Assembly (NCBI GenBank): GCA_023256215.1
Contig: JAGDXB010000053.1
Span: 9,192 to 59,933 of the forward strand
Direction: 5' to 3'
Length of the DNA stretch: 50,742 nucleotides
Source: Vulcanisaeta sp.
GTDB taxonomy: Archaea; Thermoproteota; Thermoprotei; Thermoproteales; Thermocladiaceae
The translations under genes were made by a program, and so were the position numbers. Of the stretch, positions 5,029-9,699 are shown one piece after another; positions within the stretch are counted from its first letter, which is position 1, and every line of letters begins with the position of its first letter. Under the pieces are notes generated by a model, which made no database searches, was not told the origin of the DNA, and worked only from the letters and a program-made list of their open reading frames with translations.

Positions 5029-7224
5029 ATGCCCCGTTATATTGGGCAAAGGATTAAGAGGATTGAGGATCCTAAGGTCCTGCTTGGCACAGCTAAGTAC
5101 GTCGATGACCTAGAATTCCCAGGGACACTATACCTAGCAATACTAAGGAGTCCGGTGGCACACGCTAGGTTGCTTAAGGTTGATTATAGTGATGCCTTGA
5201 AAATGCCCGGCGTTGTGTCGGTGATAACGGGACTCAACATAGCTGTTGAGAATAGGCCTAGGAATTTCCCGATGGCTAAGGATGAAATTCTATACGTAGG
5301 TCACCCAATAGCTGCGGTGGTTGCTGAGGATAGATATAAAGCCTTTGATGCCCTTGAACGTATACAGTTTGATTATGAGCCGCTGCCTGCCGTTGTAGAT
5401 CCGGAGGATGCGTTGAAGGATGAGGTTAAGGCTGTTGAGGGTATGAGTAATATTGGTTATAGGAAAACCTATAGGGCGGGTAATCCTGAGGATGCCCTTT
5501 CAAGGAGTGATGTTGTAATTGAGACTAAGCTGGAGATATCCAGGGTATATCCAGCCGCCATGGAACCGCGAGGGTTATTATCCGTTTATCAGGGCGGTAG
5601 GTTAACGGTATATGCATCGACACAAGCACCTCACTTCATGAGGAGGTTTCTCAAGAACGCCTTTGGTAATCTCGTTAGCGATATTAGGGTTGTGCAAGCT
5701 GATGTTGGTGGTGCCTTTGGTTCTAAAATGTTCCCGTACCCCGAGGACTATATAACAGTTTACGCCAGTATAATGCTTAGGAGACCTGTTAAGTGGGTTA
5801 ATACCAGGAGAGATGATTTAATGAGTACGTACCATAGCAGGGGGCAAATACACAGGTTAAGGGCTGGTTTTACAAGGGATGGTGAGTGGAGGGCCCTAAT
5901 AGATGACCTGGTAATTGATTTAGGCGCGGCTACTCATGGTTATTACCTGGCTGATATAACGGCAACACTAATAAGCGGTCCATATAAGGTTAGGGATATA
6001 CTTGTCGAGGTTTACGGCGTTAGGACAAATAAGACGCCCCTGGATCAATACCGTGGCGCTGGCCGTCCAGAGGCGGCCTTTGTTTATGAGAGGATAATGG
6101 ATATTGCAGCCGATGAGTTGGGGATGGATCCCGTGGAGATCAGGAGGAGGAACTTAATAACGCAGTTACCGTACACAAACCCATTTGGTCACCATTATGA
6201 CAGTGGCAATTATATTAAATTGCTGAGCTTTGCTGAGCAGTACTATAGGGATTTTGAGAAGAGGGCTGAGGAGCTTAGGAAGCAGGGTAGGAGGGTTGGT
6301 GTTGGTTTATCATTTTACATAGAGCAGAATAACTTTGGTCCATGGGAGTCAGCGTCAGTTAGAGTTAAGTCTGATGGTAAGGTTCTCGTCATAATAGGCG
6401 CGGCACCGCATGGTCAGGGTGATGCAACGGCCATAGCGCAGATAGTCGCTGATGAGTTGGGCATCGATATTGACCAGGTAGAGGTTTCTTGGGGTGATAC
6501 CGAGCTTATTGGTGAGGGTTTTGGTACGTATGGTAGTCGTACATTGACCCTGGCAGGTAACGCTGCATTACTTGCTGCTAGGGGTCTTAAGGAGAGGTTG
6601 AGGGTGCTTGGTGCTCAATTAATGGGTGTTAACGTTGAGGAGGTTGATTATAGGGATGGTAGAGTAGTTCACCTAAGGAGCGGTAAGTCCATGAGCATAC
6701 AGGAAATAGCCAATGCGGTCACTAGTAATGTGGGTGGTACGTGGGGGTACAGAGCGGAACCTAAGCTTGAGGAGACCGCGTATTTCGGGCTTAAGGATTA
6801 CACATATCCCTATGGATCACATGTGGCGCTTGTTGAGGTTACTGAGGAGGGTTTGGTTAAGGTGCTTGATTATGTGGCTATTGATGATATTGGTTTTGTG
6901 GTTAATCCAATGCTCGCCGAAGGTCAGGTGATTGGTGGTGTTATTCAGGGCTTTGGTGAGGTCGTGCTTGAGGAGGTTAAGTATGATGAGTCAGGTAATC
7001 TATTGACGCAATCATTCGGCGAGTATTGGTTACCTTCTGCCATGGAGTCGTTTAAAGTTAAGTGGATATACCTTGAGGATGGTAAGTCAGACGCCCCTAT
7101 CCCAAGTAAGGGTATTGCTGAGGGTCCGTTAATAGGGGTTTTACCTGCCCTGACACGCGCAATAGAGCGTGCAGTTAATAAGAGAATAACGAAAATACCT
7201 GTTGATGTTAAATTGCTCATTTAA
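5029..7224 (+). CDS. Molybdopterin-binding large subunit, xanthine dehydrogenase/aldehyde oxidoreductase family
   Basis: A 731-residue large (molybdenum cofactor) subunit of the xanthine oxidase family, which hydroxylates aldehydes, purines or aromatic substrates with water. Visible landmarks are the N-terminal GQRIKRIEDPKVLLGTAKY, the cofactor loops GGAFGSKMFPYPED and DQYRGAGRPEAAFVYER, APHGQGDATAIAQIVADELG, and KGIAEGPLIG near the C-terminus, where the catalytic Glu is expected (about residue 698). The CO-dehydrogenase loop AYxCSFR is absent, so an aldehyde oxidoreductase-type role is more likely. The FAD and 2Fe-2S subunits that normally sit beside it are missing. A TATA-like ACTTAAAATG at 4998-5007 lies 27 nt before the ATG. 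It converges on psmA with a 20-nt gap. Confidence 0.9.
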   Translation: MPRYIGQRIKRIEDPKVLLGTAKYVDDLEFPGTLYLAILRSPVAHARLLKVDYSDALKMPGVVSVITGLNIAVENRPRNFPMAKDEILYVGHPIAAVVAEDRYKAFDALERIQFDYEPLPAVVDPEDALKDEVKAVEGMSNIGYRKTYRAGNPEDALSRSDVVIETKLEISRVYPAAMEPRGLLSVYQGGRLTVYASTQAPHFMRRFLKNAFGNLVSDIRVVQADVGGAFGSKMFPYPEDYITVYASIMLRRPVKWVNTRRDDLMSTYHSRGQIHRLRAGFTRDGEWRALIDDLVIDLGAATHGYYLADITATLISGPYKVRDILVEVYGVRTNKTPLDQYRGAGRPEAAFVYERIMDIAADELGMDPVEIRRRNLITQLPYTNPFGHHYDSGNYIKLLSFAEQYYRDFEKRAEELRKQGRRVGVGLSFYIEQNNFGPWESASVRVKSDGKVLVIIGAAPHGQGDATAIAQIVADELGIDIDQVEVSWGDTELIGEGFGTYGSRTLTLAGNAALLAARGLKERLRVLGAQLMGVNVEEVDYRDGRVVHLRSGKSMSIQEIANAVTSNVGGTWGYRAEPKLEETAYFGLKDYTYPYGSHVALVEVTEEGLVKVLDYVAIDDIGFVVNPMLAEGQVIGGVIQGFGEVVLEEVKYDESGNLLTQSFGEYWLPSAMESFKVKWIYLEDGKSDAPIPSKGIAEGPLIGVLPALTRAIERAVNKRITKIPVDVKLLI

Positions 7225-8019: not shown

Positions 8020-8082
8020 TCAAACCTACTGCTATTATTTAATGCTGGCTGGCGAGTAACCTTTATTAATTAGTAATCAATT

Positions 8083-8094: not shown

Positions 8095-8970
8095 ATGAAA
8101 ATAGCGATATCTGTCAGCAATGGGTATGTGGCTGGACCGGGGGAGGGCGACGAGGTTTGGATCGTTGATGCTAAGGCTGACGGTTCCTATGAGGTCATTG
8201 ATCGTTATGAGAATCCCGCAAGGTATGCGCAGCAGGTTAGGGGTGTATTTATGCTTAGGAGTGTGCTTGAGCGCGGGGTCAATACCGTTATTTTATCGGA
8301 AATAGGTCCTCCTGGTTATAGATGGGCTGTTGCTAATGGAATTAAGGTCTACATATTCAATGGTAGCGTTGGCGATGCAATAAGGGCGTTTATTAATGGC
8401 AAGCTTCAAGAGGCATCTGGCCCTACCCACGCTGAACATCATCATGGTCATCACACGCATGGCCATAGGCATGTTGAGGGTTTGGGTAATTATGATTTTT
8501 TAAGGCCCTTCGTTGTTAATGGTATGGTTATAGCTGATTTGGGTTGTGGCGATGGTTATTACTGTAATTTCTTCAAGGATTATGCATCTAGACTCTACTG
8601 TGTTGATATTGATGAGTTGGTGATTGAGGAGGTTAGGAGGAAATTTGGTGGTTATGGTAATGTTACTGTTCTTAATGAGGACATTGTAAGGACATCAATA
8701 CCAACGGCAAGCGTAGATCTGGCATTCATGTCAAATGTTTTTCATGACATTGAAGATAAGGAGTCGGCGGTTAAGGAGGTAAGGAGGATGTTAAAGCCGA
8801 ATGGTAGGATATTGATAATAGAGTTTAAGGAGGACACGCCGTTTGGCCCACCATTCAAGTTAAGTCCGGATGAGGTTGAGCGGTATTTCATTAAGGAGGG
8901 CTTCATTAAGGAGCAATTATTGGATGTATCTCCTTATCACTACATGCTTGTGCTTAAAAAGATTGCATAG
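8095..8970 (+). CDS. NifX/NifB-like metallocofactor domain fused by a His-rich linker to a SAM methyltransferase
   Basis: The protein has 291 residues in three parts. Residues 1-105 match the dinitrogenase iron-molybdenum cofactor (NifX/NifB C-terminal) fold: MKIAISVSNGYVAGPGEGDE, then an alpha/beta pattern ending in VGDAIRAFINGKL. Residues 112-126 form a histidine-rich stretch (9 His in 15 residues), a likely metal-binding linker. Residues 133-291 are a class I methyltransferase with motif I VIADLGCGDGYYCN (145-158), LYCVDIDELVI, and VDLAFMSNVFHDIEDK. No nitrogenase genes are seen nearby, so the first domain is probably a general metal or cofactor binder. The natural reading is a metal- or cofactor-responsive methyltransferase acting on a small molecule, but neither substrate nor metal can be named. 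Confidence 0.82.
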   Translation: MKIAISVSNGYVAGPGEGDEVWIVDAKADGSYEVIDRYENPARYAQQVRGVFMLRSVLERGVNTVILSEIGPPGYRWAVANGIKVYIFNGSVGDAIRAFINGKLQEASGPTHAEHHHGHHTHGHRHVEGLGNYDFLRPFVVNGMVIADLGCGDGYYCNFFKDYASRLYCVDIDELVIEEVRRKFGGYGNVTVLNEDIVRTSIPTASVDLAFMSNVFHDIEDKESAVKEVRRMLKPNGRILIIEFKEDTPFGPPFKLSPDEVERYFIKEGFIKEQLLDVSPYHYMLVLKKIA

Positions 8971-9039: not shown

Positions 9040-9699
9040 ATGAATGAACCACCGTGGATTAATAAATATAGGGACGTCATTAATAAACTAAGGCTTGTAT
9101 TGTATAAATTCGAGTTTGATAATATTGACATTCAATCATTCATTAATGAGATAAATAAATCACTAGTTAACTGTGGATATGATCCAGTCAAATTCATAGT
9201 ATCAGACCTCATGACTGAGTTATTTGGGGCTTATTCAGTATACTCACCGTCAAAGCCCATTCCTAGGATTTACGTATCCACGGAATTATTAGGGAAGCCA
9301 AAGGCATTATTAGGTAGGGTTATAATGCATGAGGTTTTTCATCACGTACTTTATCAAAGACCACCAACATTCTTATTTAAATTGGCGCCCAAAAGGACCG
9401 AGCCCTTAATCCTCATATCCATACCCCTTTTCATTTTAGCAATAATGGCTACTATCTTAGGCTCATCACATGGCGCATTACCTTATATAATCGCTGCCTC
9501 ATCTATTACGATGGCAATAATCACAGCCCTGTTAATAAAGGCTTTAAATAACCATGAGTTGGTGGCCACAGCGCTCGTTATTTACCTGATAACCGGTTTA
9601 TGGGTTAAGGATTGGACCTATTATCGTGATGATAGGGCCCTAATGGGCATTGAGTGGAGTGACGATGTAAAGCCCAGGATTATAGAGGTGCAAAGGTAA
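9040..9699 (+). CDS. Membrane-associated HExxH metallopeptidase-like protein
   Basis: A 219-residue protein with a zinc-peptidase motif HEVFHH (97-102) in VIMHEVFHHVLY. Two hydrophobic segments follow (about 121-142 and 146-168), then NNHELVATALVIY, whose Glu173 sits where M48 peptidases carry the third zinc ligand of ExxAD. This suggests a small, divergent M48-like membrane protease facing the cytosol. The soluble N-terminal 90 residues are not recognised. A GGTGAGG site (about 9029-9035) lies 4 nt before the ATG, so this gene may combine a short leader with a ribosome binding site. It does not match any M48 subfamily well enough to name. Confidence 0.6.
   Translation: MNEPPWINKYRDVINKLRLVLYKFEFDNIDIQSFINEINKSLVNCGYDPVKFIVSDLMTELFGAYSVYSPSKPIPRIYVSTELLGKPKALLGRVIMHEVFHHVLYQRPPTFLFKLAPKRTEPLILISIPLFILAIMATILGSSHGALPYIIAASSITMAIITALLIKALNNHELVATALVIYLITGLWVKDWTYYRDDRALMGIEWSDDVKPRIIEVQR

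Follow-up and report, generated by a model that had tools for sequence, protein, structure and literature searches.

Why should a domain of the NifX family be joined, through a run of histidines, to a methyltransferase? The question is raised by one gene of the window, by which we mean the whole 50,742-nucleotide stretch of Vulcanisaeta sp. DNA analysed here (contig JAGDXB010000053.1, positions 9,192 to 59,933). In an initial annotation made from the sequence alone, the gene product was read as a metal- or cofactor-gated methyltransferase, perhaps acting on thiols, metalloids or a cofactor. Both domains and the linker of that reading held, whereas its reasoning from a metal cluster was weakened, as described below. 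The features of the fused gene, which has its own candidate TATA-like box (assigned by eye), are collected in Table 1.

Table 1 Features of the fused gene in the window and of the regulator found beside NifX genes in other loci.
Feature	Position	Strand	Basis
Fused protein CDS, 291 aa	8095..8970	+	One unbroken ORF, ATG to stop, stop included
NifX-fold domain, residues 1-111, divergent GPGE branch	8095..8427	+	PF02579, 2re2 match, without Cys or His
His-rich stretch, residues 112-126, 9 His in 15, the first being the His of the PTH motif	8428..8472	+	Sequence
Predicted disordered tether, residues 114-131	8434..8487	+	pLDDT <50, deeper AlphaFold model
Class I SAM methyltransferase domain, residues 133-291	8491..8967	+	PF08241, 3i9f match
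SAM motif I ADLGCGDGYYC, residues 147-157, including Cys157; later Cys169 in YCVD	8533..8565	+	Sequence
Candidate TATA-like box TTTATTAATT, ~24 bases 5' of ATG	8062..8071	+	By eye
PadR-type regulator, His-containing N-terminus	L033, L035, L037, L039, L040, L041, L042		Just upstream of NifX gene

The two halves of the fused protein

The N-terminal half scored above the cut-off (26.3 bits) of the Nitro_FeMo-Co model PF02579, with 33.4 bits for the whole protein and 36.9 bits for the N-terminal part alone. Among solved structures, it is closest to Ta1041 of Thermoplasma acidophilum (2re2; E 2.6e-23), which matched it over 113 residues with a Z of 21.3 and an rmsd of 1.6 (Foldseek target TM 0.89; 44% identity in the fold match). 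We thus confirmed the NifX-like domain of the initial annotation, with an extent here of residues 1-111. This region holds not a single Cys or His. After the first strand, [HRE]FG is the usual motif of ordinary NifX-like proteins, present in 21 of 25 rows (10 HFG, 9 RFG, 2 EFG, 4 none; counted by eye at the N-terminal site only, with HFG in C-terminal tails left out). The protein and its close relatives have GxGE there, mostly GPGE, which places them outside the HFG type. Glu17, Asn40, Pro41, Arg49, Glu69 and the PTH motif are invariant in the 22 rows of this GPGE branch. The absence of nitrogenase genes, already noted for the window, extended to the genomes carrying the NifX half: the nitrogenase component PF00148 was above its cut-off in 0/32, with one sub-threshold match of 17.9 bits (genome G135), and the same search detected the component in 4/14 reference genomes used as a control. 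For these three reasons, a metal cluster within the NifX fold appears unlikely, and the His tail would be the plausible metal site. Elsewhere, a NifX family protein of Cuniculiplasma is given as 1.18-fold up in cold in the available part of PMC7285479, and NEQ386 is entered as a NifX family protein in the Nanoarchaeum equitans protein table in that of PMC3149612.

The C-terminal half was confirmed as a class I SAM methyltransferase, as annotated, by its match to Methyltransf_11 (PF08241; E 3.5e-20) and by the presence of GCGDG within the motif DLGCGDGYYCN. Its nearest solved relative by sequence is 3i9f of Sulfolobus solfataricus (E 5.5e-32; 38% identity), and the structural match between the two covers 153 residues (Z 22.2, rmsd 1.7). 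A profile search found no close NifX half in the genome holding a sequence identical to 3i9f (G393). Among 128 aligned methyltransferase rows, in which some loci are counted twice under differing labels, Asp171 is present in all; Cys157 and Cys169 occur together in 43, neither is present in 80 and Cys169 stands alone in 5. Both Cys are missing in the Thermoplasmatota methyltransferases, and their co-occurrence may reflect a disulfide or shared descent. A second methyltransferase copy in a Caldivirga genome (L069:6013-6534) has kept Cys169 and lacks Cys157.

A His-rich linker resembling two joined tails

The His-rich linker pointed out in the initial annotation, with 9 His in 15 residues, stands out in its surroundings: none of the other 55 non-overlapping window ORFs of at least 90 aa exceeded 3 in 15. 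Across 60 loci, at least 6 His in 15 were found in 22 of 812 ORFs, 20 of which are members of the family and 2 the adjoining PadR-type regulator of Sulfolobaceae. The linkers of 13 other fused proteins were similarly dense, 12 of them having 5 to 9 His per 15 residues and the remaining one (L011) only 3.

Matching tails were found on the separate proteins. Lone NifX proteins of Thermoproteota carried a C-terminal PTH in 18/18 cases and at least 3 His in 17/18, and those of Thermoplasmatota (n = 20) had PTH in 8, [PAS][TS]H in 16 and at least 3 His in 16. Lone methyltransferases bore their His at the start: within the first 14 residues, 20 of 21 distinct proteins had at least one His and 17 at least two (L082, with an over-long start codon, was scored as without His), compared to 83 and 14, respectively, of 440 other ORFs taken as background. 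Length and order of the tails vary, and both separate proteins stay His-rich. The fused linker opens with PTHxEHH as the lone NifX tails do and then runs into the start of the methyltransferase, so that it looks like the sum of two older tails joined.

Two AlphaFold models (12 and 41 aligned sequences) gave two confident domains and a disordered tether with pLDDT below 50, at residues 113-131 in the first model and as listed in Table 1 in the deeper one. The deeper alignment raised the mean pLDDT from 86.3 to 92.5, and pTM was 0.59-0.60 in both models. With a pTM of about 0.6, no fixed contact between the domains is predicted in either.

Distribution of the fusion and of its separate counterparts

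The full fusion was found in 11/11 Vulcanisaeta and 6/6 Thermoproteus genomes in a search of 398 Thermoproteota genomes, 284 of which matched in some way, most often through the widespread methyltransferase fold. It was unbroken in 14 of the 17, and the 3 broken copies were all from Vulcanisaeta. A join of two genes made by the assembly was considered and rejected, as the fusion recurs in 17/17 genomes of two genera. Natural fission was considered for the split copies (G363, G371 and G383), but sequencing error is likelier because other conserved genes nearby, such as an ABCE1-like ATPase or a radical SAM gene, are also broken in all three assemblies; in G395, the fusion is intact though adjoining genes are broken. 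Many genes of the region are broken, probably by sequencing errors, in the Vulcanisaeta assemblies L056, L057, L058 and L062, two of which are JCM 14467 and JCM 11217.

Caldivirga, Thermocladium and Sulfolobaceae carry the two halves as separate, unlinked genes. Profile searches of 397 Thermoproteota genomes (thresholds of at least 100 bits for a close NifX half and at least 159 bits for a close methyltransferase) detected the NifX half in 38, one copy having 8 in-frame stops, and the methyltransferase in 42; both were present in 37 of the 38. The one miss (G359) is a genome 67% complete, and the methyltransferase was found without the NifX half in 5 Sulfolobaceae genomes. Among 243 Thermoplasmatota genomes (thresholds of at least 97 and 130 bits, respectively), the NifX half was present in 20 and the methyltransferase in 4, all 4 within the 20, the other 16 having no close methyltransferase. 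The pair is linked in Thermoproteota and is not obligate. When methyltransferase loci elsewhere were followed to their genomes, ten in all, a close NifX half was found in one, a Thermocladium, and with ten genomes searched for other phyla, the close NifX half was confined to Thermoproteales, Sulfolobaceae and Thermoplasmatota.

Nanoarchaeota with genomes of 0.4-0.6 Mb (Nanopusillus and Nanobsidianus) carry the methyltransferase half (L079:5986-6519, L080:5932-6462, L083:5932-6462), and the NifX half was not found in them. Their 73-77% identity to the Caldivirga sp. MU80 copy suggests a recent gene transfer. In the methyltransferase tree, every fused row falls in one clade (94/97). In the NifX tree, the separate Caldivirga and Thermocladium proteins fall among the fused ones, but the test did not reject a single clade of fused proteins (p-AU 0.333). 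The trees are compatible with a single fusion that later split, with two fusions and with a transfer.

Gene neighbourhood

No neighbour common to Vulcanisaeta and Thermoproteus loci was found among clusters of at least 3 loci, and at nine Thermoplasmatota NifX loci no neighbour was kept outside close relatives. In 7/13 fetched Sulfolobaceae loci, a PadR-type regulator lies immediately upstream of the NifX gene, and the two genes overlap by 4 bases in 6 of the 7; the PadR assignment is by PF03551 (one of 7 regulators tested). The His count near the N-terminus of these regulators reaches 6 or 7 in 15 in two and is lower in the others. Such neighbours point only faintly towards a metal/His reading, because His/Gly-rich starts are common among PadR proteins.

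Around the fused gene itself, window positions 5029-7224 (+) encode the large subunit of a molybdopterin-binding aldehyde/xanthine dehydrogenase, which sits between genes adjacent to each other in other Vulcanisaeta loci and lies outside the neighbour clusters of at least 3 loci. Downstream, positions 9040-9699 (+) encode a membrane protein that contains the motif HEVFHH and has no Pfam match; it is found at the same place in 8/8 other Vulcanisaeta loci.

Proposed mechanism and alternatives

We consider it possible, though somewhat short of an even chance, that the protein is a two-part methyltransferase in which a metal-loaded His tether holds the domains together and gates the enzyme, with the same happening in trans where the proteins are separate. 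The C-terminal domain would bind SAM and methylate an acceptor, and the NifX-fold domain would be its partner without an internal metal cluster, a ligand being recognised at the GPGE/NPA/RG/SEIG residues. The metal bound by the tether would be divalent, of the Ni, Co, Zn or Cu class, and the loaded tether would keep the two domains together and thereby gate the enzyme. With separate genes, a single metal ion would be bound jointly in trans by two His tails, one at the C-terminus of the NifX protein and one at the N-terminus of the methyltransferase, and the fusion would have turned this metal-bridged contact permanent. There is precedent for a methyltransferase with a small activator partner in Trm112 with Hvo_0019, whose structure (6f5z) is a fold match of the methyltransferase half. 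The recurrence of the fusion throughout both genera, the matching His tails, the co-occurrence of the halves, the flexible tether and the PadR-type neighbour all argue for this two-part methyltransferase. Against it stand the halves found alone in Sulfolobaceae, Thermoplasmatota and Nanoarchaeota, the unlinked position of the separate genes, the His-poor L011 linker, the pTM of about 0.6 and the commonness of His/Gly-rich PadR starts.

SlyD and HypB have His tails that store or buffer metal ions, and the tails described here could do only that, leaving the joined methyltransferase ungated. Tails that differ in length and order yet stay His-rich on both separate proteins would fit such a buffer, as would the occurrence of each half alone; however, the choice of this particular methyltransferase for the fusion and the co-occurrence in 37/38 genomes would be left unexplained, and we regard this explanation as doubtful, though not far-fetched. 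It is also conceivable, but quite improbable, that the His run is an acid sensor that titrates near cytosolic pH and alters the docking of the two domains with no need for metal. The cytosolic pH of thermoacidophiles is slightly acid, and the three lineages to which the close NifX half is confined are mostly acid-loving and heat-loving, but Thermoproteus is only mildly acidophilic.

The substrates proposed in the initial annotation lead to two further explanations. A thiol or metalloid methyltransferase, to whose SAM domain the NifX domain and His tail deliver a toxic substrate (sulfide, arsenite, selenite or tellurite), would agree with the Cys157 and Cys169 conserved in the subfamily, with the distant fold relationship to arsenic methyltransferases (4fr0, E 1.4e-6) and with the fold match of the bacillithiol methyltransferase NmbA (9ri2). 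Yet Thermoplasma members have neither Cys, the paired loss equally fits a disulfide, and arsenite is unsupported as a substrate because the arsenite methyltransferase model ArsM gave 31 bits, far below its cut-off of 263; we think an enzyme of this kind unlikely. Very unlikely, in our assessment, is the maturation of a cofactor, in which the methyltransferase would modify a Mo/Fe/S cluster carried by the NifX domain. Membership in PF02579 speaks for it, as does the distant relationship in fold and sequence to ORP (2wfb, E 2.6e-5), which binds a Mo-Cu cluster, but residues 1-111 without Cys or His, GxGE in place of [HRE]FG and the lack of a nitrogenase component above cut-off in the 32 genomes all speak against it. 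There is, last, a very slight chance that the methyltransferase modifies the imidazoles of its own His tether or tail, as METTL9 does on HxH. The enzyme and the His tails are the parts common to the fused and separate forms, the window linker contains HGH, HTH and HGH, and METTL9, according to the available part of PMC12269839, prefers HxH with a small middle residue, its substrates including zinc transporters. However, 6 of the 13 other fused proteins have no HxH with a small middle residue, the DREV model (METTL9 family) gave 11.5 bits with a cut-off of 26, and the Thermoplasmatota NifX half is often found without the enzyme; METTL9 was not among the matches listed for the best 50 structures, an absence that proves nothing. 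On this equally slight chance, the fusion would unite a prokaryotic protein-histidine methyltransferase with the tail that serves as its substrate, and in relatives the enzyme would act on the tail carried by the separate NifX protein; the metal affinity or pKa of the tail would be set in this way, and SAM status would be coupled to metal or acid load.

Comparison with known systems

Each half is a member of a known family in which the solved proteins have no stated function. In the open-access literature, which leaves subscription journals mostly outside coverage, no paper was found that deals with the fusion, with 3i9f or with Ta1041 as a protein. The occurrence of the same two pieces separately in relatives, each with its own His tail, may point to a metal- or acid-responsive enzyme that has so far gone unstudied. 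Some Sulfolobaceae, a family with the separate-gene version, are genetically modifiable.

METTL9, a human protein-histidine methyltransferase, is tied to HxH-rich, zinc-related sequences (PMC12269839, in the part available) as the fused protein is to its His tether, but shows no family-level similarity to the fused methyltransferase. CDF cation-efflux transporters carrying a NifX-like domain at their C-terminus, found in Thermoplasmatota and Thermoproteota (L187:1327-2541 by Pfam; L188:616-1851 and L233:90-1346 by eye), are a second metal-related use of the NifX fold. They resemble the window protein in that the NifX-like domain is fused to a functional module and differ from it in being membrane transporters of the ordinary NifX branch without a His tether. 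The remaining counterparts are the two solved relatives. 3i9f, a putative type 11 methyltransferase, belongs to the same subfamily as the fused half and, like it, has Cys157/169, the residues FHD and GPP and a start rich in His, but stands alone. Ta1041, in PF02579, has the NifX fold, GPGE, PTH and the His tail in common with the fused protein and is likewise a stand-alone protein, without the methyltransferase fusion. The GPGE/PTH-His branch of the NifX fold to which it belongs is set apart by these features, and nitrogen fixation cannot explain it. The fusion and the facing His tails tie together Ta1041 and 3i9f, two structural-genomics proteins without a stated function, and each of them gains a concrete testable partner.
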